Part shown: positions 37,612 through 50,526 of the stretch, in pieces
Layout of the letters: each line of letters starts with the position of its first letter
Numbering within the stretch: position 1 is the first letter of the stretch
Made by a program: the position numbers and the translations under genes
Origin: Burkholderiales bacterium RIFCSPHIGHO2_12_FULL_63_20
Lineage (GTDB): Bacteria > Pseudomonadota > Gammaproteobacteria > Burkholderiales > Burkholderiaceae_C
NCBI GenBank assembly: GCA_001770775.1
Contig: MESA01000011.1
Coordinates: 121,001-185,000, forward strand
Length of the DNA: 64,000 nucleotides
Reading direction: 5' to 3'
Notes under the pieces: generated by a model
Seen by the model: the letters and a program-made list of their open reading frames with translations, nothing else
What the model was told of the DNA's origin: nothing
The model's database searches: none

Positions 37612-38556
37612 GTGACCCCACAAGCCCTGCTCGACGCCATCGCCACGATGACGCTGCCCCCGGACGCCCAGCGCCTCTTCCACGGCCGTGGCGGCATGTT
37701 CCCTGGTTACGAACAATGGGCGCTGGACTGGTATCCGCCGGTCCTGCTGCTGACCAGCTACCAACCGGTGAGCGAGGAGGAGCTGGCGCCCATCCAGGCT
37801 GCGCTGGCGGCCCGCTGGGCGGAACTGATGCCCGATCAGCCTGTGAACCTGGTGTTCCAGCACCGCAACGAGGTGCGCGCCGACACCCGTGTGCTCAGCG
37901 GCGCGGTGCCTGACCCGCATGTGGTCAGCGAGCAAGGCGCGCAGTTCAAGGTGCACCTGCTGCGCGGCTTCAACCACGGGCTGTTTCTGGACATGGGCGA
38001 GGGCCGCCGCTGGGTGCGCGAGCACGTGGCCCAGGCCTGCACCACGAGCCACCGCTACAAGGTGCTCAACCTGTTTGCCTACACCTGCGCCTTCTCGGTG
38101 GTGGCGATGCAGGCCGGTGCCCGCCAGGGCATCAATGTGGACATGGCCGCCGGCGCCCTGTCCATCGGCAAACAGAACCACCACCTCAATGGCATCACGT
38201 CGGATGTGAGTTTCCTGCCGCACGACATCTTCAGCTCCTGGGGCAAGATCACCCGCAGCGGCCCGTACGACCTCATCATCCTCGACCCGCCGACCTACCA
38301 GAAGGGCAGCTTCGTGGCCGAGAAGGACTACGCCCGCCTCATGCGCCGTCTGCCGGATTTGCTGATGCCGGGGGGCCATGCGCTGCTGTGCCTGAACTCG
38401 CCCAAACTGGGACCGGGCTTTTTGCAGGATCTGATGGCGGTGGAGGCGCCGGAGCTGCGCTTTGTGGAGCGCGTGGCCAACCCGGCGGCGTTTGCGGATG
38501 TGGCCGAAGACCGCGCGTTGAAGGTGTTGGTGTACCGCGCGCCGGACCTGAGCTGA
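37612..38556 (+). CDS. RlmI/RlmK-like SAM-dependent RNA methyltransferase (314 aa)
   Basis: The Rossmann-fold methyltransferase motif I is VLNLFAYTCAFSVVAMQAGA, and the catalytic strand is IILDPPTYQKGSF, the DPPxY type seen in 23S rRNA cytosine/guanine methyltransferases. The N-terminal PUA domain of RlmI is absent, replaced by about 120 residues including LVFQHRNEVRADTRVLSG. The predicted start is GTG at 37612 with no good Shine-Dalgarno; an ATG at 37648 is possible. rRNA modification is the likely role; the target base is unknown. Confidence 0.82.
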   Translation: MTPQALLDAIATMTLPPDAQRLFHGRGGMFPGYEQWALDWYPPVLLLTSYQPVSEEELAPIQAALAARWAELMPDQPVNLVFQHRNEVRADTRVLSGAVPDPHVVSEQGAQFKVHLLRGFNHGLFLDMGEGRRWVREHVAQACTTSHRYKVLNLFAYTCAFSVVAMQAGARQGINVDMAAGALSIGKQNHHLNGITSDVSFLPHDIFSSWGKITRSGPYDLIILDPPTYQKGSFVAEKDYARLMRRLPDLLMPGGHALLCLNSPKLGPGFLQDLMAVEAPELRFVERVANPAAFADVAEDRALKVLVYRAPDLS

Positions 38557-38564
38557 GCTGCCCC

Positions 38565-40250
38565 TCAGTTCACCACGTCACGCGCTGCCCCGCCCAGCTT
38601 GAGCATCCGGTAATTGAACTGCCGCAAGGTCAGCCCCAGCGCCTGAGCGGCACGGGAGCGGTTGCCACCGTGCTGGCGCAAGGCCTCCGTCAAATCGGCC
38701 AGCGCATGGGAGGCGGCGGGCAGGTAAGGCCGCACCAGGGTCACGTCCATTGCCGCGGGACGCGGGACGCGGTCGTCCGCCGTGAAGCGCGCGCGCAGCG
38801 CGTCCGCCGGCGAGGTGCGCGGCAGAAAGCGCTCGATGTCGGCCGCCTCCAGCACGCTCTTGTCACCCAGCAACACCATGCGCTCGATCAGGTTGGCCAG
38901 CTCGCGGATGTTGCCGGGCCAGGCGTGCGCCTGCAGGCGCTGCAGGGCGCCCGGGCTGAGGTTGACGTTGCGCTGGTTGGCCTGGTTGAAGCGGTTGAGA
39001 AAGTGGATCGCCAGCTCATGCACATCGGCGCTGCGCTCGCGCAAGGCAGGCAGGCGGATCGGGATCACATTGAGCCGGTAGAACAGGTCTTCGCGGAAGG
39101 CGCCCAGGGTCACTTCGTGAGCCAGATCGCGGTTGGTGGCGGCCACCAGCCTGGCATCGATGTGCACCTCACGCTTGCCGCCCAGGCGCACGATGGTGCC
39201 CTCCTGCAGGGTGCGCAAGAGCTTGGTCTGCATGGACAGCGGCAGCTCGCCAATCTCGTCCAGAAAAATGGTGCCGCCATGCGCCTGTTCGAACAGGCCG
39301 GCGCGCGAACCCACGGCCCCGGTGAAGGCGCCCTTCTCGTAGCCGAACAGCTCCGACTCGAACAGGGTTTCGGGAATGGCCGCGCAGTTGACCTTGATGA
39401 AGGGGTGATCCCGGCGCGGGCTGGCCAGGTGCAGCGCGCGCGCGAACATCTCCTTGCCGGTGCCCGACTCGCCCAGCAGCAGCACACTGGCCTTGGTGGC
39501 GGCCACCTGCTCCAGTTCGGCGATCGAGCGCAGCAACACCGGTGAGGTGCCCACGATGCCGTAGCGCGCGGGCGAGGCCTCCAGCGCCTGCGTGAGCGCC
39601 ATGTTGTGCGCCTCCAGCGTGCGGGTGCGCTGCTCCACCGTGAAGCGCAGCTCCAGCAACTGCCCGATCAGCGTGGCGAGGATGCCCAGGATGGTCAGGT
39701 CATCGGCCAGCGAGCGATAGCGATGGCGGATGCGATGGCAGGCCAGCACCCCGACGGTGGACAGCCCCACCCGCACCGGCATGGCGATGAAGGACACCGG
39801 CCCGGGCGGCAGGTCGTCGCGCTGCACGGTGCGGCACAGGAAGGTCGGCTCGCGGTCGATGTCCTGCACGATGATGAGCTGCCCCGTGGCCAGCACCCGA
39901 CCCGTGATGCCCTCGCCACGCCGAAAGTGCCCCCGTTCGCGCTCCTCCCGCGTCAGCCCGTAGGCATAGCGGATGCTGGCCGAAGCCACCTTCAGGCTGC
40001 TGCCGGGCGGCAGGTCCATGAGGGCTTCGAGGTTGTCGGCCAGCACGATCCGCCCGCGGTTCAGGCCCAGCAGCTCGGAGCACAGGTGCAGCATCTCGCG
40101 CAGCACCACGTCCGGCGCCAGGCTCTTGCCGATGTGCTTCATCACCTCCCGCATCAGGAGCATTTCCTGCGCGTGCCAGTTGCCGGCGCCCGGGGCGGCG
40201 TCGGCCCCGGGCGCACCCGGCAGATCAGGGGTCGCGGGAGGGGTGTGCAT
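38565..40250 (-). CDS. Sigma-54-dependent activator GAF-AAA+-Fis HTH (561 aa)
   Basis: NifA-like architecture. The GAF sensor domain covers about 35-200. The AAA+ domain has Walker A GESGTGKE near 258, the sigma-54 contact loop GAFTGA near 306 and Walker [13 protein letters not shown] near 320. The C-terminal Fis-type helix-turn-helix ([20 protein letters not shown]) lies at about 530-555. There is no receiver domain, so control is presumably by a small ligand on GAF. It is the last gene of the cyanase operon, 15 bases after cynS, and the operon has a consensus sigma-54 promoter, so positive autoregulation is likely. Canonical cyn operons use a LysR regulator instead. Confidence 0.93.
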
Positions 40251-40265
40251 GTGCGTCGGGGCCGA

Positions 40266-40709
40266 TCAGTACTGCTTGTAGGGCAGGAACTTGCCGGACA
40301 GCACGACGTTGACGCGATCTCCCTTGGGATCGCCCTGGCGCTGGATGTCCATGCTGAAGTCGATCGCACTCATGATGCCGTCGCCGAACTCTTCGTGGAT
40401 CAACTCCTTGATCGTGCTGCCGTAGACGCTGACGATTTCATACCAGCGGTAGATCAGTGGGTCGGTGGGCACCGGTGTGGGCAGCGAGCCCTTGTAAGGC
40501 ACCACCTGCAGCCATTTGCGCTCCTCGTCGGTGAGGTCGAAGATGTCGCCCACGATGGCGGCCTGGGCGGCGTCGAAGGTCATCTGGCCCAGGCACCCGG
40601 CCGTCGTCCACTCCTTGGAGAGGCCGACCTTCTGGGCGACCTCTTCCCACTTGATGCCCTTGGACACCTTGGTGCTGATGATTTTTTCGGTGACGTCCAT
40701 GCGGTTCAT
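40266..40709 (-). CDS. cynS: Cyanase (147 aa)
   Basis: Cyanate + bicarbonate gives CO2 + carbamate, which decays to ammonia. Active-site residues Arg88, Glu91 and Ser114 keep the exact spacing of E. coli Arg96/Glu99/Ser122, within YRWYEIVSVYGSTIKELIHE and EFGDGIMSAIDF. The N-terminal helical domain precedes the family-specific cyanase fold. The start at 40709 follows CTGGAG and gives the usual length; the upstream extension has no homology. Its place behind a nitrate/cyanate-type importer indicates use of external or pathway-derived cyanate as a nitrogen source. Confidence 0.96.
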   Translation of the reverse strand: MNRMDVTEKIISTKVSKGIKWEEVAQKVGLSKEWTTAGCLGQMTFDAAQAAIVGDIFDLTDEERKWLQVVPYKGSLPTPVPTDPLIYRWYEIVSVYGSTIKELIHEEFGDGIMSAIDFSMDIQRQGDPKGDRVNVVLSGKFLPYKQY

Positions 40710-40764
40710 GAGAACTCCAGTCTTGATGTGAGAAAAAAGGGGGTTGGAAAAATGGCAGGATCGC

Positions 40765-41652
40765 TCAGTGAGCCTTGGCGCGCGACACCAGAAAGTCAAC
40801 GATGTGGTTGCGCAGGTCGTAGTAGCCATCGAGGTGATGCAAGGTGGCGCGGGTGCGCTCGCGGGGCAGTGGGTTGACCACCACCTCGGCGATGCCGCCC
40901 GGCTTGTAGCCTTGGTCGGTCTCGGCGCCGTTGCTCATCAGCAGGATGCGATCGGCCAGCAAGATGGCCTCGTCCACGTCGTGAGTGATCATGAACACCG
41001 TCTGATGGGTCTCGCGCACAATGCCCATCAGCTCGTCCTGGATGGTGCCGCGCGTCAGCGCATCCAAGGCGCCAAAGGGCTCGTCCAGCAAGAGCATCTT
41101 GGGCTGGATGGAGAAGGCCCGGGCGATGCCCACCCGCTGCTTCATGCCGCCGGACAACTGGCTGGGCTTCTTGTCGATCGCCGGCGTCAGGCCCACCAGC
41201 TGCACGAACTTCTCGACATGCGCGTTGGTTTGCGCCGCCGACCAATCCGGCCAGCGAGACTTGACGGCAAAGGCAATGTTCTGGCGCACCGTCAGCCACG
41301 GCATCAGGGCGTGGCCCTGGAACACCACCCCGCGCTCCAGACTGGGCCCGACCATCTCACGCGACTCCATGAACACATGGCCCGCAGTGGCGGTGTCCAG
41401 CCCGGCCAGCACGTTCAAGATGGTGGTCTTGCCGCAGCCCGAGTGGCCGATGACGCAGACGAACTCGCCGCGGTCCAGCGTGAAGGAAACATCGGCAAAC
41501 ACGGGCTTGTCGGCCACATAGGCCTTGCCGAGGCGTTCGATCTGAAGCAGAGGGGTCTTCACGGGAGCCTTTCCTGCGGATGCTGTGAGGTCGGGCGCGG
41601 GCGCCGGCGGTGCGGTCTTGAGGCCACCGAGGGCCGAGGTGTCAATCCACAT
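40765..41652 (-). CDS. Nitrate/cyanate-type ABC transporter ATPase (295 aa)
   Basis: Walker A GHSGCGKTT, signature LSGGMKQR and Walker B LLLDEPFGALD are intact. VFQGHALMPWLTVRQNIAFA and VNPLPRERTR are typical of the NrtD/TauB/SsuB subgroup. There is no fused substrate-binding domain at the C-terminus, so it is NrtD/CynD-like rather than NrtC-like. An unusual 35-residue Ala/Pro-rich N-terminal extension precedes the ABC domain. The ATG overlaps the permease stop by 11 bases. Confidence 0.92.
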   Translation of the reverse strand: MWIDTSALGGLKTAPPAPAPDLTASAGKAPVKTPLLQIERLGKAYVADKPVFADVSFTLDRGEFVCVIGHSGCGKTTILNVLAGLDTATAGHVFMESREMVGPSLERGVVFQGHALMPWLTVRQNIAFAVKSRWPDWSAAQTNAHVEKFVQLVGLTPAIDKKPSQLSGGMKQRVGIARAFSIQPKMLLLDEPFGALDALTRGTIQDELMGIVRETHQTVFMITHDVDEAILLADRILLMSNGAETDQGYKPGGIAEVVVNPLPRERTRATLHHLDGYYDLRNHIVDFLVSRAKAH

Positions 41653-42508
41653 AGGTCACCGCCTTTTGCAGTCGGCCAAAGGCCAGGTCCAGCAACATGC
41701 CCACCACGCCGATGACCAGCACGGCAAAGATCACATTGCTCAGGGAGAGGTTGTTCCACTCGTTCCAGACGAAGTAGCCGATGCCCGTGCCGCCCACCAA
41801 CATCTCCGCCGCCACGATCACCAGCCAGGCAATGCCCATGCTGATGCGCATGCCGGTGAGGATGGTGGGGGCCGCGGCGGGCAGGATCACCTGCAGCGCT
41901 TTGCGCAAGGGGCTGACCTCCAGGGTGGCCGCCACGTTGAGCCATTCCTTCTTGACCGCCGCCACACCAAAGGCGGTGTTCACCAGCATCGGCCAGATCG
42001 AGCAGATGAAGATCACGAAGATCCCGCTCAGGGTCGAGTCCTTGATGGTGTATAGCGCCAGCGGCATCCAGGCCAGGGGGCTGATCGGCTTGAGGACCTG
42101 GATGAACGGATCCAGCGCCCGATTCAGCAGGGGGGACATCCCGATCACGAAGCCCAGCGGGATCGCGACCAGGCAGGCCAGGCCAAAGCCCAGCGCCACA
42201 CGCCCCAGCGAGTGCGCCAGCTGGATGCCCACGCCCTTGTCGTTGGGGCCGTTGTCATAGAACGGCCGGGACAGATGCGACCACACCGTCTCGCCCATCT
42301 GGCCCAGCGTGGGGAAGCCATCGGCCTTCTTGGCCGAGGGGTCCTGCCCCATCATCTGCGCGTACTCGATCTGTTCGGGCGTCAGGCCGGCACCGGAGGC
42401 GGCGCCGCCCGCGCTCGCGGTGGCGACGTACCAGATGCCGAGGATGGCCACCAGGATCAGGCCCGACAGCAGCCCGGCGCGCACTTTCAGGTTCTTGGCG
42501 ACACTCAT
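41642..42508 (-). CDS. Nitrate/cyanate-type ABC transporter permease (288 aa)
   Basis: BPD-type inner-membrane permease of the NrtB/TauC/SsuC family with six predicted helices. The EAA-like loop includes LEVSPLRKALQVILPAAAPT, which couples to the ATPase. LKPISPLAWMPLALYTI is characteristic of NrtB-type permeases. A long periplasmic segment (about 40-95) follows the first helix. The start at 42508 lies between the substrate-binding gene stop and the permease coding region with no gap. Confidence 0.93.
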   Translation of the reverse strand: MSVAKNLKVRAGLLSGLILVAILGIWYVATASAGGAASGAGLTPEQIEYAQMMGQDPSAKKADGFPTLGQMGETVWSHLSRPFYDNGPNDKGVGIQLAHSLGRVALGFGLACLVAIPLGFVIGMSPLLNRALDPFIQVLKPISPLAWMPLALYTIKDSTLSGIFVIFICSIWPMLVNTAFGVAAVKKEWLNVAATLEVSPLRKALQVILPAAAPTILTGMRISMGIAWLVIVAAEMLVGGTGIGYFVWNEWNNLSLSNVIFAVLVIGVVGMLLDLAFGRLQKAVTYVD

Positions 42509-42509
42509 G

Positions 42510-43901
42510 TCACACCGCCTTTCGGATGGCAAAGCTCTTCAGGTAGGCATCGGCCTTGGCCGCATCGAACTCCTTGCCCATCACCTTGAACTTGGGCGAA
42601 GCGGCCGCCGGTGCCGGCTGGCCCAGTGCCTTCATGTGCTTGCGGGCATCGGTCATCAGGAACACCTTTTCGGCAATCTGACGGTAGTTCACATCGCCCT
42701 TGAGGTAACCCCAGCGCTGCATCTGCGTGAGCATCCACACGGCCATGCTGTCCCAGGGCATCGGGTCAAAGTCCGCACGCGAGGGCACGTTCTGCACATT
42801 GCCCAGGCCATCGGCAAAGCGGCCAGTGAGCACCTGCTTGACCACCACCTCGGGCTGGTTCAGGTACTGCGGCTTGGAGATGACGCCCGCGATCAGCTCG
42901 CGGTTCTTGGGGCCGCGGGCCATGGCGGCAGCGGTCAACACGGCGCGGTAGAGCGCGGCAAAGGTGTTGGGGTTCTTCTGCACGAACTCGGCGCTGGTGC
43001 CAAAGGCGCAGCAAGGGTGACCGTCCCAGATGTCCTTGGTGAGCAGGTGGATGAAGCCCACCTCCTCGTAGACCGCGCGCTGGTTGAAGGGATCGGGGCC
43101 GAGGAAGCCGTCGATGTTGCCGGCACGCAGGTTGGCCACCATTTCGGCCGGTGGCACCACGCGCAGTTGCACATCGGTGTCGGGGTTCAGGCCCGCCTCA
43201 GCCAGGTAGTAGCGCAACAGGAAGTTGTGCATGCTGAACTCGAAGGGAATGGCGAACTTGAAGCCCTTCCAGTTCTTCGGGTCGCGGTTGTTCTTGTGCT
43301 TGAGCGCCAGGGTGATGGCCTGGCCGTTGACGTTCTGGATCGTCGCCACCTGCATGGCCTTGGCGCTCGATCCCAGGCCCAGCGTGATGGCCAGCGGCAT
43401 CGGGCTCAAGAAGTGCGAGGCGTCATACTCGTTGTTGAGCATCTTGTCGCGCACCAGGGCCCAGCCCGCCGTTTTGCTGAGCTCCACATTCAGCCCTTGC
43501 TGTTTGTAAAAGCCCAAGGGGTGCGCCATGATCAACGGCGTGGCACAGGTGATGGGGATGAAGCCGATCTTCAGATCGGTCTTCTCCAGCGCGCCTTTGT
43601 CCTGCGCCATGGCCTGCAGACTGGCCAGGGGCAGCACGCTGGCGATGGCCGCCATGGCCGTGCGCTGTCCGACGGCATTGAGGAAGGCGCGGCGGGTGGC
43701 TTCCACCGGGAAGAGCGCTTTCACCGCGGCCGCTTCGATGAAATCGCGCGACAGGGTGTCGACATCGGTGGCGCGGGCCTCGGTCGCAGCCAGCGTGGCG
43801 GCGTCATGCTCGGCACTGCTGGCGTGTTGTCCGCAGGTGCAACCGCCCAGTCGGGCAAGCGGCGAATACGGGCGATAGATGTTGTCGTCAGAGTTCGTCA
43901 T
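42510..43901 (-). CDS. NrtA/CynA-like ABC substrate-binding protein, Tat-exported (463 aa)
   Basis: The binding domain from about 105 (LKIGFIPITCATPLIMAHPL) belongs to the NrtA/CmpA family for nitrate, bicarbonate or cyanate. A twin-arginine signal, TRRAFLNAVG, precedes a hydrophobic segment and an AMAQ cleavage region near 95-100. Before this lies an unusually long n-region of about 65 residues with the motif GGCTCGQHASSAEH, which could bind metal before cleavage. The next gene is cynABDS-like, so cyanate is a sensible ligand, but nitrate or an organic anion cannot be excluded. Confidence 0.9.
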   Translation of the reverse strand: MTNSDDNIYRPYSPLARLGGCTCGQHASSAEHDAATLAATEARATDVDTLSRDFIEAAAVKALFPVEATRRAFLNAVGQRTAMAAIASVLPLASLQAMAQDKGALEKTDLKIGFIPITCATPLIMAHPLGFYKQQGLNVELSKTAGWALVRDKMLNNEYDASHFLSPMPLAITLGLGSSAKAMQVATIQNVNGQAITLALKHKNNRDPKNWKGFKFAIPFEFSMHNFLLRYYLAEAGLNPDTDVQLRVVPPAEMVANLRAGNIDGFLGPDPFNQRAVYEEVGFIHLLTKDIWDGHPCCAFGTSAEFVQKNPNTFAALYRAVLTAAAMARGPKNRELIAGVISKPQYLNQPEVVVKQVLTGRFADGLGNVQNVPSRADFDPMPWDSMAVWMLTQMQRWGYLKGDVNYRQIAEKVFLMTDARKHMKALGQPAPAAASPKFKVMGKEFDAAKADAYLKSFAIRKAV

Positions 43902-43931
43902 GGCGTGGCCTCGGTCAGAAGTGATGAAAGG

Positions 43932-43958
43932 GGGCGCTGCGCCCTGCTCAGTGCAGGG
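43932..43958 (-). repeat. Two overlapping small hairpins at the rubredoxin reductase / transporter junction
   Basis: GGGCG-CTG-CGCCC (43932-43944) and CCCTGC-TCAGT-GCAGGG (43942-43958) share three bases and cannot form together. The second spans the stop codon of the reductase gene. They might act in mRNA processing or set the transporter-to-enzyme ratio. Function is inferred only from position. Confidence 0.3.
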
Positions 43959-45177
43959 TCAGCGGCATCGACGTGGTCTTGACCCGCACCACCATGGGGC
44001 GGACCTGATAGGGCTCCGGCTCACCCGCGCAGATTTGCGCGGCGATGGTTCTGGCCTGGCGCGCAATCGGCTCGATGTAGCGGCTGGCCTGGCCATCCAC
44101 CGTGATGCAGTCGCCCAGTGCGTAGATGCCTGCCTGACTGGTACGCAAGGTTCGTGCCTCCACGGCGACGCCCTGGTCCCAGCGCAAGCCCGCCGTGCGG
44201 GCCAGGCGTGAGGGGGTGTGCAAGCCCGCGGCGGCGATCAGCTGATCGGCCTCGAACACCTGACCACAACGGGTGCGCACGCGGATGCGGCCCTGCACTC
44301 GCTCGGCCGAGGCCACCTGCACACCGCCCACAAAGCGGATGGGCAGGTCTTGCCAGGCTTGCAGCACCTGCTGCCCCGCTTGCTCGGCCTGCCAGCGCGC
44401 CAGCGGCTCGCTCTGGGTGTCCAGCAAGGTGATGCGGTGCCCGCCCAAGGCCAGGTCATTGGCCAGTTCACTGCCAATCAGGCCAGCCCCGACGATCACA
44501 AGCTCACATGATGAGCCTTCCATCGCAGCGCGCAGTCTCTGATACGCCGCCAGGTGGTTGATGCGCCAGCACAAGGTGGCCGGCAGCGTGTCGGGCAACA
44601 CCGGCTGCGCGCCGTGGGCCAGGATGAGATGGGTATACGGAATCGGCCCCCGTGTGGTGCGCAATTGGTGCGTGGCCTCGCACACGCGCACCGCATGGGT
44701 GTGTGCCATCAGGGTCACACCCAGGCGACGTGCCGCCTGCACGCCAGACTCTTTGACCAGCTGCTCGGGCGCCAGGCCTCGGGCCATGGCCACGGACAGC
44801 AGCGGCTTGTCATACACATCGCCGGCGCACGCGCTCACCAGGGTGATGGGCAGATCGGCATCACGGGCCCGCAAGGCCTCGGCCATCTGCCAGCCTGCGC
44901 GCCCTGCGCCCACGATGACCACACCGGCTTCGCCCGCACGGCGAGTGCACACCACCGATGCGCGGCCGGCCTGCGCACGCAGCGTGTCCAGACAGGGTGC
45001 GGTGTAAGGCACGAAGTCCTGCTTGCTGACCCCGCACAGGGGGCAGGCCCAGTCATCGGGGATGTCAGCCAGGCGGGTGCCAGGAGGCAGCCCTCCGTCG
45101 GGATCGCCCTGGGCCTCGTCGTAGACGTAGCCGCAGGCCTCGCAGATGTACTGCTGGAAAGGCAAGATGGCACTCAT
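43948..45177 (-). CDS. Rubredoxin fused to FAD/NAD(P)H rubredoxin reductase (409 aa)
   Basis: Residues 8-56 are a rubredoxin with Fe ligands Cys12, Cys15, Cys45 and Cys48 ([17 protein letters not shown]). Residues from about 84 form a pyridine nucleotide-disulfide oxidoreductase: FAD motif [13 protein letters not shown] motif [15 protein letters not shown] and terminal FAD motif GIYALGDC. Such pairs pass electrons from NAD(P)H to oxygenases or oxygen-protection enzymes, usually from two genes; here one polypeptide does both. The ATG overlaps the upstream flavoprotein stop by 4 bases, pointing to that protein as the electron acceptor. An in-frame start at 45348 lies inside the upstream gene and is rejected. 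Confidence 0.92.
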
Positions 45178-46325
45178 GCGGGCATCTCCTCGGTGCTCAA
45201 GCGCGCGATCTCCTTGCGCAGGTGCTTGATGGCGGGGGTGACGATGGCGACGAAGTGCGACTCTCGCACGCGGCGCTGCACATCGGAGCTGAGCAGATAG
45301 CCGCGTGCGCCCTGGTGCATCAAGGCCGACTGCGCGGCCCGCAGACACAGCTCGGCGCCATGCGCCCGCGCATCCAGCACGTCGATGAAGAACTCCTTGC
45401 TGCTGTCAAACGGGGTCTCGGCCAGCTTCATGACCCGTGCCGACAACTCGTCCAGCTCGGCCTGCAAGGCATCGGGCCGGTCTTCCAGGAACTGGTTCAC
45501 ATGGCCGAGCTGCCCTTCCACGGCCCACATCGAGTCGATGGCGCCCTGGGTCACGCCCACCGCCATGCCGCACTGCAACATCACAAAGGCCGCCCGGATG
45601 CTGGCAATGAAGGGGCGCGTCGGATCGGCAATCAGTTGATCGGCACCCACAAAGTGATCGCTCAAGCGCAGGGCATAGGTGCCCGTCCCCTCCATGCCAG
45701 AGAAACTGGGGCACTCGCGCATTTCCACGCCCGGTGCATCACAGTGCAGCAGGAACATGATTTCATGTGGCTCACTCGTTGAGCCTGATTCCACGCTGGC
45801 GATGGCGCCGCAGTATTGAGATGGCCCCAGGTTGCTCACCCAGGGCAGCGTGCCGCTCACCCGATAGCCGCCCTCCACCACGCGAGCACGCAAAAGCATG
45901 CCTTCAATCTGGGCGTAGCTCTTCATGGGGTTGGACAGCGCGGTGCCGCCCAGCCCCTCCCCGCTGAGGTGCGCCTGCAGCACGCGGCCGGTCAAGGCGG
46001 GGTTGCCGCTGTGCTGCAGGTACAGCCCGCACACGGCCTGGCACCACATCATGAAGCCGGTGGCCCCGCACACGCGGGACACCTCGGCCATCGCCTGGAT
46101 GGCTAGGCCATAGTCGCCGGCCTGCGTGTCGGTATCGAGGTGGGCACTCATGGCGCCCACCCTGGCCAGATCGCGCAGGATCGCTTGCGGATACAGGCCG
46201 CGGTCGATGGCTTCGACCTGCTGCTTCAAGGGGCCGTGGGCAATGGCCTGCACGGCAGCCATCAAGGCGGAGGAGACCTCTGCAGGAGGCGAGGCGAGGT
46301 CCTGAGGCATGTCAGCGTGGTTCAT
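45174..46325 (-). CDS. Acyl-CoA dehydrogenase-fold flavoprotein, possibly a monooxygenase (383 aa)
   Basis: Matches the acyl-CoA dehydrogenase superfamily: [20 protein letters not shown], the FAD-contacting strand [20 protein letters not shown] and a C-terminal four-helix domain with [20 protein letters not shown]. Similarity is to the DszC/SfnB-like branch, which uses reduced flavin and oxygen on S- or N-compounds, more than to beta-oxidation enzymes. There are no thiolase or CoA-ligase neighbours. Co-translation with rubredoxin-reductase supports an oxidative role. AAGGAG precedes the ATG. Substrate unknown. Confidence 0.8.
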
Positions 46326-46358
46326 GTGGAGACTCCTTGAGGCAGCCAGCGCTCGGCT

Positions 46359-46943
46359 TCAGTCAGCCAGGCTGATCGTGAAGGGGATGGGGTTGCGCAT
46401 CGTGTTGGCCACCGGCGAGTAGTAGTTGGCGTGCTGCACGATCTCGTCGAGCACCTCACGCGGCGCATCGCCTTCCACCAGCACCTTCACGCGAATGGCC
46501 TGAAAGCCCATCTCAGGCGGGGTCTTCTGCAAGGCCCCATCGGCGCCCCAGGCGGCGGGGTTGCCGATGTCGCCCTCCATGAAGATCTCCAGGCGCGTCA
46601 GCTTGACCTGCTTCCATGTGGCGACCGCGGTGATGCCCACGGCAAGGCAGCCGCCCAGGCCCGACAGCACGATCTCCCCGGGGGCGGGGGCGGTGTCCTG
46701 CCCGAACAGATGCAGCGGCTCATCGACCACCACTGGCGTGTGGTTGCCCACATAGCTGAGCGAGCGGTATTGCCCCTCCATCACGGTGTGCACTTTGTTG
46801 GTGCCGCGAGAGGATGGGTTGTTGCGCCCCTTGTCCGCAAAGGCCATGAGCCCATCGCGATCGATGGGGCGCAGATAGGCCTTCACCGTGGTGGGGGCAG
46901 CGGCAGTCGAGGGGGCAGTGGCTGGGGCGATGACGGTGGACAT
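46359..46943 (-). CDS. OsmC-fold protein lacking the resolving cysteine (194 aa)
   Basis: The OsmC/Ohr core is recognisable: GEIVLSGLGGCLAVGITAVA with the usual first Cys at 99, and the late motif YYSPVANTMRNPI. Family peroxidases have a second Cys in the late motif (CPVSNT-like); here it is Ser176, and Cys99 is the only cysteine. A two-cysteine peroxidase cycle is therefore impossible, and a binding or hydrolytic role is likely. It is the first gene of the sigma-54 operon. AGGAG before the ATG at 46943 decides the start over an in-frame ATG at 47000, which lies inside the promoter. Confidence 0.85.
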   Translation of the reverse strand: MSTVIAPATAPSTAAAPTTVKAYLRPIDRDGLMAFADKGRNNPSSRGTNKVHTVMEGQYRSLSYVGNHTPVVVDEPLHLFGQDTAPAPGEIVLSGLGGCLAVGITAVATWKQVKLTRLEIFMEGDIGNPAAWGADGALQKTPPEMGFQAIRVKVLVEGDAPREVLDEIVQHANYYSPVANTMRNPIPFTISLAD

Positions 46944-46995
46944 GAAAGCTCCTGAACAAGGGAAAGAAAGAATGTCTGCTTGGCAATGTCTACAT

Positions 46996-47011
46996 TGCAA
47001 GGGGTGTGCCA
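46996..47011 (-). promoter_or_regulatory. Sigma-54 (-24/-12) promoter of the OsmC-cyanase operon
   Basis: On the minus strand the sequence reads TGGCACACCCCTTGCA, matching TGGCACR-N4-TTGCW at every conserved position, with the GG and GC dinucleotides at the required spacing. Transcription should start near 46986, about 43 bases before the OsmC-like ATG. The same transcription unit encodes a GAFTGA activator as its last gene. Confidence 0.88.
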
Positions 47012-47131: not shown

Positions 47132-47155
47132 GTGAACACTTTGTTCACAAAGTGT
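47132..47155. promoter_or_regulatory. Compound palindrome, candidate activator (UAS) site
   Basis: ACACTTTG-TTCA-CAAAGTGT (47136-47155) is a perfect 8-bp-arm inverted repeat. Overlapping it, GTGAAC-ACTTT-GTTCAC spans 47132-47148. It lies about 150-170 bases upstream of the predicted sigma-54 start point, the usual enhancer distance, and about 110 bases before wrbA, so it could serve both. It does not match the NifA TGT-N10-ACA site. Confidence 0.6.
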
Positions 47156-47262: not shown

Positions 47263-47862
47263 ATGTCCAAAGTCCTCGTCCTGTACTACTCGAGCTACGG
47301 CCACATTGAAACCATGGCCCAGGCCGTGGCGGAGGGCGCACGCAGCGCCGGCGCCACCGTCGACGTGAAGCGGGTCCCGGAAACCGTCCCGCAGGAGATC
47401 GCCCAGTCGGCACACTTCAAGCTTGATCAGGCCGCCCCCATCGCCACGGTGGCGGAGTTGGTCAACTACGACGCCATCATCGTGGGCGCGCCGACGCGCT
47501 ACGGGCGCATGCCAGGGCAGATGGCCGCCTTCCTCGACCAGACGGGCGGGCTGTGGGCGCGCGGCGCCCTCAACGGCAAGGTGGGCGCGGCCTTCACCTC
47601 CACCGCCACGCAGCACGGTGGCCAGGAGGTGACGCTGTTTTCCATCATCACCAACCTGATGCACTTTGGCATGGTCATCGTGGGGCTGCCCTACAGCTTT
47701 GCAGGCCAGATGACGCTGGACGAAATCGTCGGCGGCAGCCCCTATGGCGCGACCACGATTGCCGGTGGCAAGGGCGAGCGCCAGCCCAGCGCGATCGAGT
47801 TGGATGGTGCCCGCTTCCAGGGCAAGCTGGTGGCCGAAACCGCCAACAAGCTGTTCGGCTGA
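47263..47862 (+). CDS. wrbA: NAD(P)H:quinone oxidoreductase, WrbA flavodoxin-like (199 aa)
   Basis: FMN-binding flavodoxin fold with the WrbA insert: [38 protein letters not shown] and [17 protein letters not shown]. It reduces quinones by two electrons at the membrane face, avoiding semiquinones. Length is normal and GGAGC precedes the ATG. It is divergent from the sigma-54 operon and may share its upstream palindrome. Confidence 0.95.
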
Positions 47863-47981: not shown

Positions 47982-48755
47982 ATGACACGCCTGCTCGCCC
48001 ACCTGCTCTGCCTCGGTCTGCTGCTTGCCGGCGCCAGCGCCCATGCCGAGAAAATCATGGTGGCGGCCGCAGCTGACCTCAAGTTCGCCCTCGACGAGAT
48101 CGTGACCGCCTTCAAGGCCCGCGAGCCCGGTCATGAGGTCGAGGTCGTCTACGGCTCGTCGGGCAAGTTCCACACCCAGATCCAGCAAGGCGCCCCCTAC
48201 GATCTGTACTTCTCGGCCGACATCGCCTACCCGCGTGCGCTGGCCCAGGCGGGTTTTGCGGCCTCGTCAGTCCAGCCTTATGCGGTGGGCCGCCTCGTGC
48301 TGTGGAGCGCCTCGCGCGATGCCCGCCAGCTGCGCCTGAGCAGCCTCACCGATCCGAAGATCACCCGCATTGCGATTGCCAACCCCAAGCACGCGCCCTA
48401 TGGCCAGCGCGCGGTGGAGGCCTTGCGGGCCGCCGGGGTCTGGTCCCAGGTCGAGCCCAAGCTCGTCTACGGTGACAACATCGCGCAAACCGCCCAGTTC
48501 GTGCAGACCGGCAATGCCCAGGTCGGCATCATCGCGCTGGCCCTGGCCGTGAACCCGACGCTATCGCGCCAGGGTGGGTACGCCTTGATTCCCGACCAGC
48601 TCCACACGCCGCTGGAGCAGGGCTTCATCATCACGAAGCGGGCACAAGGCAAGGCGCTCGCCCAGCGCTTTGCGGACCACATGCGCAGCCCCCAGGCCCG
48701 CGCCGTGATGAGCCGCTACGGCTTCGTCCTGCCCGGTGAAGCGGCAGCCCCATGA
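47982..48755 (+). CDS. modA: Molybdate ABC transporter substrate-binding protein (257 aa)
   Basis: A Sec signal peptide (1-22, ending ASAHA) precedes the ModA fold: VAAAADLKFALDEIVTAF, YGSSGKFHTQIQQGAPYDLY and FSADIAYPRAL, with the oxyanion-binding Ser residues. NPKHAPYGQRAVEAL is conserved. It captures molybdate or tungstate in the periplasm for ModB/ModC, which follow within 25 and 2 bases. The start is the ATG before MTRLLAHLLCLG; the frame is open much further upstream but without homology. Confidence 0.94.
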   Translation: MTRLLAHLLCLGLLLAGASAHAEKIMVAAAADLKFALDEIVTAFKAREPGHEVEVVYGSSGKFHTQIQQGAPYDLYFSADIAYPRALAQAGFAASSVQPYAVGRLVLWSASRDARQLRLSSLTDPKITRIAIANPKHAPYGQRAVEALRAAGVWSQVEPKLVYGDNIAQTAQFVQTGNAQVGIIALALAVNPTLSRQGGYALIPDQLHTPLEQGFIITKRAQGKALAQRFADHMRSPQARAVMSRYGFVLPGEAAAP

Positions 48756-48779
48756 CACCCGTGCCCAGAAAGATGCCCC

Positions 48780-49457
48780 ATGCTCTCAGCCAGTGACTGG
48801 CAGGCCCTGTGGCTGACCGCCCGCCTGGCCGGGGTGGTGACGCTGATCTTGCTGGTGCTGGGCACGCCCATCGCCTGGTGGCTGGCGCGCAGCCGCTCGC
48901 GCTGGAAGGCCCCCATCGGCGCCGTGGTGGCACTGCCCCTGGTGTTGCCCCCGTCGGTGCTGGGCTTTTACCTGCTGCTGGCCATGGGGCCGGACGGCCC
49001 CCTTGGGCAACTGACCCAGGCGCTGGGCCTGCCCCCCCTGCCTTTCACCTTCACGGGGCTGGTGGTGGCCTCGGTGTTTTACTCCCTGCCCTTCATGGTG
49101 CAGCCCCAGCAAAGCGCTTTTGAGGCCATGGGCGAGCGCCCCATGGAAGTGGCCGCCACCTTGCGCGCCTCACCGCTGGACGCCTTCTTCACCGTGGCCG
49201 TGCCGCTGGCCGCGCCTGGCTTCCTGAGCGCGTCCATCCTGACCTTCGCGCACACGGTGGGCGAGTTCGGCGTGGTGCTGATGATCGGGGGCAACCTGCC
49301 GGGCATCAGCCGCGTCGCCTCGGTGCAGATCTACGACCATGTCGAATCGCTGGACTACGGCCAGGCCCATCGCCTTGCTGCGGTGATGCTGGTGTTCTCG
49401 TTCGTGGTCCTGCTGAGCCTGTATGCCTGGCGCGCCCAACCCGGGCGGAGGCGCTGA
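48780..49457 (+). CDS. modB: Molybdate ABC transporter permease (225 aa)
   Basis: Five to six helices and the EAA loop [20 protein letters not shown] define Mod[21 protein letters not shown]-type sequence is typical. Second gene of modABC. Confidence 0.94.
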
Positions 49458-49458
49458 G

Positions 49459-50526
49459 ATGAGCGACATCGAAGCACGGTTTCAGCTCGACTGGCCCGGG
49501 TTCACGCTCGACGTCGATCTGCGCCTGCCGGGGCGGGGCGTCACGGCGCTGTTCGGCCCCTCGGGCTCGGGCAAGACGACCCTGCTGCGCTGCATCGCAG
49601 GGTTGGAGCGCGCGCCGCAAGGACGCTTGCGCGTGCAAAATCAGATCTGGCAAGACAGCCGTGAATGGCTGCCCACCCATCGCCGTCCCATCGGCTATGT
49701 GTTCCAGGAGGCCAGCCTCTTCCCGCACCTCAGCGTGCTGGGCAACCTGCGCTATGGCCTGCGCCGCAGTGCCGAAGCGCCCCAGGTGCAGCTGGACCAC
49801 GTCATCGACCTGCTGGGCATCCGCCCCCTGCTCGACCGTCAGCCCGATCACCTGTCCGGGGGCGAGCGTCAGCGCGTCGGCATCGCCCGCGCCCTGGCGG
49901 TGGCCCCGCGCGTGCTGCTGATGGACGAGCCCTTGGCTGCGCTGGATCTGCGTCGCAAGCAGGAAATCCTGCCCTACCTGGAGCGTCTGCGCGATGAGCT
50001 CGACATCCCCATGCTCTACGTCAGCCACGCGCCCGACGAGGTGACCCGCCTGGCCGACCACCTCGTGATGCTGGACCAGGGTCGCGTGACCGCCAGTGGC
50101 GCCTTGGGCGAGATCCTGAGCCGGGTGGACGCGCCCATCCGCCTGGGCGAAGACGCCGGGGTCATCCTGGCCGCCACGGTCAGCGAGCTGGATTCCGCCT
50201 GGCACCTGGCCCGCGTGGACTTTGGTGGCGGCCAGCTGTGGATCCGCGACCATGCCCTGCAAGTGGGCCAGCGCGTGCGCGTGCGCATCCTGGCTCGCGA
50301 TGTGAGTCTGGCGGTGCAGCCCGGCCACACCAGCATCCAGAACGTGATGCGCGGCCGCGTGGACGCCATCGGCGACGACACCCACCCCGGCCTGATGCTG
50401 GTGCGGTTGCACATCGGTCAGACGAGCGTGCTGGCCCAGGTCACCCGACGGGCCGCCGCCGACCTGGGTGTGGCGCTGGGGCAGGACATCTGGGTGCAAA
50501 TGAAGTCGGTCGCCTTGATGGAGTGA
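49459..50526 (+). CDS. modC: Molybdate ABC transporter ATPase with TOBE domain (355 aa)
   Basis: Walker A FGPSGSGKTTLLRCIAG, signature LSGGERQRVGIARAL and Walker B LLMDEPLAALD. A C-terminal TOBE/Mop domain at about 290-353 senses oxyanion and gates the transporter in known ModC proteins. ATG lies one base after the modB stop. No ModE regulator gene or clear ModE site is present in the window. Confidence 0.94.
   Translation: MSDIEARFQLDWPGFTLDVDLRLPGRGVTALFGPSGSGKTTLLRCIAGLERAPQGRLRVQNQIWQDSREWLPTHRRPIGYVFQEASLFPHLSVLGNLRYGLRRSAEAPQVQLDHVIDLLGIRPLLDRQPDHLSGGERQRVGIARALAVAPRVLLMDEPLAALDLRRKQEILPYLERLRDELDIPMLYVSHAPDEVTRLADHLVMLDQGRVTASGALGEILSRVDAPIRLGEDAGVILAATVSELDSAWHLARVDFGGGQLWIRDHALQVGQRVRVRILARDVSLAVQPGHTSIQNVMRGRVDAIGDDTHPGLMLVRLHIGQTSVLAQVTRRAAADLGVALGQDIWVQMKSVALME

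Follow-up and report, generated by a model that had tools for sequence, protein, structure and literature searches.

A cyanase operon headed by three redox genes and a sigma-54 promoter: a possible route for scavenging nitrogen from thiocyanate

What do three redox genes do at the head of an operon that otherwise encodes cyanate functions? The question is raised by an eight-gene locus of Burkholderiales bacterium RIFCSPHIGHO2_12_FULL_63_20 (assembly GCA_001770775.1), which lies in the window analysed here, a stretch of 64,000 nucleotides from contig MESA01000011.1 (positions 121,001 to 185,000). The first three genes encode an OsmC-like protein, a flavoprotein of the acyl-CoA dehydrogenase (ACAD) fold and a rubredoxin-reductase fusion, together called the module here; the other five encode a transporter, cyanase and an activator. 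That the redox module and the cyanate half are linked not by chance is well supported by comparison across genomes. The operon is best read as a system for scavenging nitrogen from thiocyanate (and cyanate), a reading to which a probability of about one half is given.

The eight-gene operon is real. All of its genes lie on the minus strand and run from 46943 to 38565, and the junctions between them, counted from start and stop codons, measure 33, -4, 46, 1, -11, 55 and 15 bases; strand, order and junctions are thus as the original prediction gave them. Its features, in the direction of transcription and in window coordinates, are as follows.

47132..47155, minus strand: overlapping perfect palindromes CACTTTGT-GA-ACAAAGTG and GTGAACA-AAG-TGTTCAC, from a palindrome scan, about 120 bp upstream of the sigma-54 site
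46996..47011, minus strand: sigma-54 promoter TGGCACACCCCTTGCA, a -24/-12 site with 0 mismatches to TGGCAYN5TTGCW, 68 nt upstream of OsmC
46359..46943, minus strand: OsmC-like protein, 194 aa (PF02566, 72.5 bits)
45174..46325, minus strand: ACAD-fold flavoprotein, 383 aa (Acyl-CoA_dh_N, 32.4 bits; middle domain below the Pfam cut-off)
43948..45177, minus strand: rubredoxin fused to a pyridine-nucleotide FAD reductase, NorW-like (Rubredoxin PF00301, 75.7 bits; Pyr_redox_2 PF07992, 134 bits)
42510..43901, minus strand: NrtA/CmpA-family substrate-binding protein, CynA-like (NMT1_2 PF13379, 281.5 bits; NrtA 2g29, E 7.2e-47; CmpA 2i48, E 8.9e-44)
41642..42508, minus strand: NrtB-type permease, CynB-like (BPD_transp_1, 77.5 bits; TIGR01183 (ntrB), 226.5 bits, cut-off 209.05)
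40765..41652, minus strand: NrtC/D-type ATPase, CynD-like (ABC_tran, 112.5 bits; TIGR01184 (ntrCD), 285.5 bits, just under the cut-off of 291.8)
40266..40709, minus strand: cyanase CynS, 147 aa (PF02560 and PF21291, 122 and 91 bits; TIGR00673 (cynS), 165.9 bits, cut-off 113.3)
38565..40250, minus strand: CynF/NifA-like sigma-54 activator with GAF, AAA+ and Fis-type helix-turn-helix domains (PF01590; PF00158, 237.5 bits; PF02954; nifA model, 434.9 bits, under the cut-off of 528.85)

The association of the module with cyanase was examined in two genome samples. The order sample comprised 300 Burkholderiales genomes, 27 of which carry an ACAD of this family at E 1e-20, and the phylum sample comprised 349 genomes, 21 of which carry one at E 1e-50. 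Typed by their neighbouring genes, the carriers of the order sample fall into 16 OsmC-type genomes, 9 with an AhpD-like CMD protein (CMD-type; in one of these CMD is encoded at the operon's far end) and 2 untyped ones (G212, which has cynS and whose contig ends, and G133, without cynS). The phylum sample adds 12 OsmC-type and 3 CMD-type genomes, giving totals of 28 and 12.

In the order sample, cynS occurs in 13/16 OsmC-type genomes, in 1/9 CMD-type genomes and in 51/273 genomes without the ACAD. The Fisher p-values are 3.5e-7 for OsmC-type against no ACAD and 0.002 for OsmC-type against CMD-type; the counted genomes share ancestry, so that the counts are not independent events and the p-values overstate their number, a first point that weighs against the proposed reading. 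The additional genomes of the phylum sample behave similarly (11/12 OsmC-type and 1/3 CMD-type with cynS). Whether the redox genes travel with cynS was the question on which the original prediction turned, and the answer depends on the partner: they do so in OsmC-type carriers, of which 24 of the 28 have cynS, but not in AhpD-type carriers, where only 2 of the 12 have it. Close linkage is divided in the same way, with cynS at most 10.3 kb from the ACAD gene in 17 of the 28 OsmC-type genomes (9/16 in the order sample and 8/12 in the phylum sample) and in none of the 12 CMD-type genomes.

Individual loci were then described by tblastn markers. For 26 of the 28 sampled OsmC-type genomes, a binding protein was found within 10 kb of the ACAD in 20 loci, cyanase in 14, a CynF-like activator in 17, rubredoxin in 16, rhodanese in 10, and persulfide-dioxygenase-like genes and a sulfonate-type transporter in 2 each. 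The 11 CMD-type loci show rubredoxin in 7 and a sulfonate-type transporter in 7, with no binding protein, cyanase, CynF-like activator, rhodanese or persulfide-dioxygenase-like gene; 4 loci without a near partner contain one binding protein and two sulfonate-type transporters. A further set of named loci consists of the best 80 of 521 matches, which are hence close in sequence to the window's OsmC. In 78 of them (not L079 and L111) the ACAD is present in the stretch, and all 78 are OsmC-type; contig ends cut many. They include cyanase in 46, rhodanese in 46, a CynF-like activator in 59, a TauE-like gene in 5 and a persulfide-dioxygenase-like gene in 7 (by one query) or 1 (by another). Of the 42 named loci that extend at least 9 kb and at least 8 kb on the two sides, 28 have a cyanase gene nearby and 23 a rhodanese gene. 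One named locus outside the 78, on a Stutzerimonas kunmingensis contig (L079:10001-12007), carries consecutive OsmC, cynS and rhodanese genes, and its stretch gave no ACAD match.

The control consisted of 20 cynS loci from genomes without the ACAD; 19 were hand-picked from the 51 such genomes of the order sample, and the phylum sample supplied the last one. Each of the 20 contains cynS, and in two of them the sequence reaches only about 3 kb to one side. A cyanate-type binding protein is encoded at most 8 kb from cynS in 11 of the 20, and over this distance the CynF-like activator, rhodanese, OsmC, ACAD and rubredoxin are each found in 0/20.

The linkage between module and cynS spans many families and varies in gene order. 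An Acetobacter plasmid bears the full gene set with cynS, and the genome groups f77, f87, f94 and f100 belong to another class of the phylum, which at a guess is Alphaproteobacteria; named alphaproteobacterial plasmids with the same genes support this assignment. In three loci (L160; L120, from a metagenome-assembled genome of Cellvibrionaceae; L174, on a Marinobacter plasmid) a sulfonate-type ATPase, binding protein and permease are followed by the module and then by cynS. The module is joined by the activator in L120 and L174, and by rhodanese in L120 and L160. None of the three stretches, of which that of L120 leaves little contig beyond cynS, revealed an NrtA-type protein. Cyanase behind the module without a cyanate-type importer is what would be seen if the imported compound were not cyanate and cyanate were made inside the cell.

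The sigma-54 site of the window begins exactly at 47011, the end coordinate of the studied feature and the first base of TGGCACACCCCTTGCA. Of 107 OsmC-type loci, 45 have a site with at most one mismatch to the consensus upstream of OsmC, and of 45 rhodanese-first operons, 44 have one in front of rhodanese; the figure for random 300-bp stretches from the same loci is 37 of 2140. None of 12 stretches upstream of CMD genes has one. The palindromes at 47132..47155 represent a candidate enhancer that could bind the activator. In some relatives, similar-looking palindromes precede OsmC, and in many of the 107 upstream stretches the scan detected none. Taken with the co-occurrence counts and the control loci, the sigma-54 sites support the original proposal that the first three genes are tied to cyanate metabolism under sigma-54 control.

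On both sides the operon is bordered by opposite-strand genes, namely a diverging flavodoxin/FMN-reductase gene that starts at 47263 (47263-47862, plus strand) and a converging methyltransferase gene at 37612-38556. Beyond the flavodoxin/FMN-reductase gene, a binding protein, a permease and a TOBE-domain ATPase on the plus strand (47982-50526) resemble a molybdate transporter.

Sulfur genes accompany the module and not cynS. Rhodanese, present in 10/26 sampled OsmC-type loci and 46/78 named loci, is found in 0/11 CMD loci and 0/20 control loci. The module rhodanese is a two-domain sulfurtransferase (PF00581) that scores far under the cut-off of the 3-mercaptopyruvate sulfurtransferase model, and its YCFKGARA motif is kept in all 55 long matches. 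Its gene follows the ACAD gene in L156-L160 and L165 and precedes OsmC in many named loci (Acidovorax, Hydrogenophaga, Curvibacter), while a Pseudosulfitobacter plasmid has the order transporter, OsmC, ACAD, sulfurtransferase. Behind cynS, Herbaspirillum encodes a protein whose best model is the sulfur transferase/dioxygenase Blh (349 bits, under the cut-off of 625, with only that half present). An Oxalicibacterium locus also includes a TauE family protein, and in Stutzerimonas (L096, L103) the module and NrtABC are followed by TauE-like and persulfide-dioxygenase-like genes. Rhodanese, the persulfide-dioxygenase-like genes and the sulfonate-transporter variants together argue for a sulfur-containing substrate, with thiocyanate favoured over cyanamide or a nitrile. 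The original idea that the first three proteins oxidise a compound to cyanate still fits best, narrowed towards thiocyanate, one of its four examples.

What could the redox proteins contribute to such a reaction? A set of 109 OsmC proteins, that of the window included, has C99 in 109/109 and serine at position 176 in 109/109, which we take to be the position of the second catalytic cysteine in OsmC/Ohr. With a single conserved cysteine, the protein presumably lacks the pair of catalytic cysteines required of an OsmC/Ohr peroxidase. The CMD partners keep a CxxCxxxH motif in 12/12. For the second protein, the ACAD fold is confidently predicted by an AlphaFold model (predicted local distance difference test 91.8, predicted template modelling score 0.90), and all of its 50 best PDB matches have the acyl-CoA dehydrogenase fold, with identities of 15-21%. 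Residues C86, W94, N132, K135, E141, H337 and K367 are invariant in 43 relatives, and the C86 motif is kept in 118 of 123 ACAD-fold proteins. No glutamate or aspartate occurs at 357-369 in 43/43 relatives, a region where common acyl-CoA dehydrogenases presumably hold the catalytic base, and alignments to solved enzymes stop at position 360. The third gene, originally described as a rubredoxin-reductase, does encode a reductase, but not a reductase alone, as PF00301 and PF07992 lie in one protein; against the NorW model it reaches 219.7 bits, under the cut-off of 392. In one OsmC-type branch a DUF302 protein stands between the ACAD and a separate small rubredoxin (L048:10234-10644; similarly L038, L040, L044, L047, L166 and L167). 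The idea of a selenoprotein, raised by two ACAD matches with an apparent inner TGA, was rejected when translation showed the TGA to be the normal stop.

The same ACAD family occurs either in an OsmC/NrtABC/CynS/CynF setting or in a CMD/SsuABC-like setting. A quick tree of 70 ACADs, thinned from 123 at 82% identity, calls for a minimum of 4 partner changes; this minimum rises to 5 when two loci whose CMD gene lies at the far end are treated as CMD. The ACAD of L031, 70% identical to that of the window and placed within its clade of 22 rows, has CMD and a sulfonate-type transporter as neighbours. That one enzyme occurs with cyanase in a nitrogen context and elsewhere in a sulfur context suggests a substrate that contains both elements, with the nitrogen leaving as cyanate, and thiocyanate is the smallest such compound.

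Additional hints come from the binding proteins. When 42 NrtA-like proteins (from 82) are placed on a tree, eight that stand beside the module form one clade (Shimodaira–Hasegawa-like approximate likelihood ratio test, SH-aLRT, 98) which includes none of the 9 control rows. Five of the eight have no permease of their own (L032, L033, L044, L046, L124), two are in tandem before a standard one (L042, L054) and one is cut by a contig end (L172); both kinds are present in L042, L054 and L124. One transporter serving two related anions would give such second binding proteins. At residue 194, the standard proteins have glutamine in 68/69 and the special clade asparagine in 7/8 and serine in 1/8 (5/82 were set aside). 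As a specificity switch this residue is a lead only, given that its link to ligand contacts of NrtA is presumed and that the spacing does not fit clearly.

The window's own genome has a second ACAD copy (L049, contig C27, 7097-11609; also L204), 37-39% identical, in a sulfonate-type operon of CMD, ATPase, binding protein, permease and ACAD, with a 32% identical rhodanese adjoining. CMD, ACAD and a small rubredoxin occur together, with no transporter match beside them, in L183 (a Neisseria gonorrhoeae record), L039, L043, L045 and L169. Thiocyanate is abundant in saliva, so loci of the Neisseria gonorrhoeae type may deserve attention. A distant ACAD (28%) on Synechococcus elongatus pANL (L180, 7457-11916) is located behind cysK and catalase-type genes and has an ABC transporter downstream, and two unannotated records labelled 'Staphylococcus phage' (OR849882.1, OR845000.1) contain an ACAD relative of 28.6% identity, for which host DNA is a possible reason. 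Two further genes recur at most 8 kb from the ACAD, one for a PAS-type sensor kinase (10 examined loci) and one for a LuxR-type response regulator (14), both named by eye (L067, L077 and others). Neither this pair nor the other recurrent neighbours named by eye within this distance (regulators, a TetR protein, a SnoaL-like protein) are informative.

Three other explanations of the locus have to be weighed. According to the first, the module acts on another compound that combines a C-S bond with a nitrogen, for instance an organic thiocyanate, an isothiocyanate or a thiocarbamate, and cyanate is set free during its conversion; all of the sulfur and nitrogen evidence applies to it. Sulfonate-type transporters, which usually serve organic sulfur compounds, accompany the module, and the ACAD-fold enzyme DszC, which acts on an organosulfur compound, is among the PDB matches (E 3.1e-9). 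Most cynS-linked operons, however, use an NrtA/CmpA kind of transporter for small anions, and no recurrent organic-substrate hydrolase was recognised within 8 kb (18 neighbour clusters, the sequences of 14 of them judged by eye), which leaves this explanation rather unlikely. The second holds that the ACAD-fold protein is the long-proposed cyanide monooxygenase, which would turn HCN into cyanate, and that rhodanese provides a side route. Rhodanese transfers sulfur to cyanide, cyanate would be the product either way, and the enzyme is on record as proposed, not demonstrated, in the available part of PMC11049912. This is quite improbable, as the persulfide-dioxygenase-like and TauE-like genes and the SsuABC-type setting are ill-suited to a sulfur-free substrate, and no nitrilase was recognised by eye among the recurrent neighbours, where no search was aimed at nit1C or cio genes. 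The weakest, that of an ordinary cyanate operon whose redox genes are unrelated stress or sulfur genes within the same nitrogen-starvation regulon, may point to a cynFABDS operon of Pseudomonas pseudoalcaligenes that, in the accessible portion of PMC6627978, works without redox genes and to the 51 of 273 genomes with cynS and no ACAD, but is made very improbable by a linkage that persists across many families under shifting gene order, by the three loci with cynS directly behind the module and no cyanate-type transporter, by CynF-like activators in 17/26 module loci and 0/20 control loci, and by the sigma-54 site that heads the redox genes.

Thiocyanate is thus considered the best single reading of the substrate, at about one half, and several observations besides shared ancestry weigh against it. 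The window's operon itself is without rhodanese or persulfide dioxygenase, and its genome yielded a single rhodanese of the module type, which has 32% identity and is encoded on a different contig (C27). Rubredoxin is missing from 10/26 sampled OsmC-type loci, including all examined loci of the large-genome group f87; a flavin fed by rubredoxin is therefore not universal, and the electron donor must differ there. Four of the 28 OsmC-type genomes are without cynS and 11 without it nearby, and the two Stutzerimonas loci (L096, L103) are without it in the stretch. CMD/SsuABC-type genomes mostly have no cynS (10/12), and cyanate would be left undisposed if they also used thiocyanate. In an independent-pairs test on the tree, all decided pairs run in the expected direction for both cyanase and activator, with only 5 pairs, which puts a p of 0.05 out of reach. 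Finally, two extra binding proteins (L154, L159) are placed outside the special clade.

How would the operon work on thiocyanate? The proposal builds on the observed gene content, sigma-54 promoter and recurrent partners, and its remaining steps are inferred. Nitrogen limitation would lead the CynF-like activator to turn the operon on, and the NrtABC-type transporter would import SCN- and OCN-. The flavin of the ACAD-fold protein may receive electrons from NADH by way of the reductase and rubredoxin domains, and this protein would oxygenate the sulfur of SCN-. OsmC, through its single cysteine, could accept the activated sulfur as a persulfide, so that cyanate is freed, and CynS would convert the cyanate to ammonia and CO2. 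Where present, rhodanese, persulfide dioxygenase and TauE would hand the sulfane sulfur on to thiosulfate or sulfite. The exact chemistry is the least certain part of this scheme; alternatively, the ACAD-fold protein could work as an oxidase or a dehydrogenase while OsmC or AhpD disposes of peroxide.

More tentatively, the module may represent a third enzymatic cleavage of thiocyanate. In this wider proposal, an ACAD-fold flavin oxygenase, supplied by NADH via rubredoxin in many carriers, would activate the sulfur, and a thiol partner with a peroxidase fold (a single-cysteine OsmC or an AhpD-like CxxC protein) would accept it as a persulfide and set cyanate free. The same core would serve either a nitrogen programme (sigma-54, NrtABC, cyanase, rhodanese) or a sulfur programme (SsuABC-like), and it would account for thiocyanate use by heterotrophs. 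The available parts of PMC5328954 and PMC5778177 describe heterotrophs of several genera that use thiocyanate as a nitrogen source and name two first-step enzymes, thiocyanate hydrolase and a copper dehydrogenase. Pseudomonas stutzeri 18 converts thiocyanate to thiosulfate, as the accessible section of PMC4697911 states, citing Grigor'eva 2006; this product is compatible with sulfane sulfur and sulfite. The module is present in Stutzerimonas kunmingensis and S. stutzeri (L096, L103), and no strain of the cited thiocyanate papers is shown to carry it. Thiocyanate degradation by a groundwater consortium required air, and ammonium was inhibitory, as far as the available text of PMC6440457 goes. 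The module is a concrete and widespread candidate for the first step of thiocyanate use in heterotrophs, and it would give a new role to three loosely annotated families, 'acyl-CoA dehydrogenase', OsmC and AhpD. It could also supply markers for thiocyanate removal from mining and coking effluent, thiocyanate being a toxic mining waste.

Compared with known systems, the cyanate half is familiar. Of the eight genes, five belong to the known cynFABDS type of cyanate cluster, and their order is new. The likeness to cynFABDS of P. pseudoalcaligenes CECT5344, as set out in the accessible text of PMC6627978, covers the ABC cyanate transporter, the cyanase, the Fis-type sigma-54 activator and the sigma-54 promoter. 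In the window, cyanase and an NrtABC-type ABC transporter stand side by side, and an activator with the GAFTGA motif announced by the original prediction and with GAF, Sigma54_activat and HTH_8 matches is combined with a sigma-54 promoter; its likeness to CynF is judged from domains only. The window's genome (completeness 97.5%) has one cyanase match. The two operons differ in that cynF is divergent in CECT5344 (PMC6627978, in the part available), whereas here no divergent arrangement is seen, the activator being co-directional and last, the promoter standing before OsmC and three extra genes heading the operon. The same part of that source reports that CynF is essential for expression and that ammonium represses, which makes the earlier statement that such clusters normally have a LysR (CynR) or NtcA regulator incomplete. 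The words OsmC, rubredoxin and acyl-CoA have no occurrence in the text of PMC6627978, and no description of the OsmC/ACAD/rubredoxin-reductase module was found in the open-access literature, going by titles and abstract openings. What is new is thus the three leading redox genes, the gene order and the partner swapping, the cyanate half being already known.

The ACAD-fold flavin monooxygenases DszC and SfnB share the fold and the link to sulfur. DszC, however, has only distant similarity to the window's ACAD-fold protein (the PDB match at E 3.1e-9), and neither OsmC/AhpD nor rubredoxin is known as a partner of DszC.

Thiocyanate hydrolase, the enzyme of the carbonyl sulfide (COS) pathway, would resemble the proposed system in the use of thiocyanate as a nitrogen source, but it hydrolyses thiocyanate to COS and ammonia. 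As candidates for this enzyme, the window's genome offered only two nitrile hydratase alpha chains, which were rejected with scores of 197.5 and 165.4 against the cut-off of 291.45 for the gamma subunit of thiocyanate hydrolase (TIGR03887), both above the nitrile hydratase cut-off. They are encoded at C11:99580-100122 (L181) and C32:9144-9701 (L182), and one of them shares the window's contig, at a distance of about 21 kb from where the window starts.

Another parallel is the 'cyanate pathway' of Thioalkalivibrio thiocyanate dehydrogenase (TcDH), in which, according to the available portion of PMC5328954, thiocyanate is converted to cyanate and sulfur before cyanase acts, as it would be here if thiocyanate is the substrate. 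No copper oxidase family is among the Pfam matches of the eight operon proteins, for which no search with the TcDH sequence was made. The accessible parts of PMC5328954 and PMC5778177 present TcDH as a copper protein of autotrophic sulfur oxidisers that passes electrons to cytochrome c, whereas the operon described here combines a flavin/rubredoxin set with a nitrogen-type operon.

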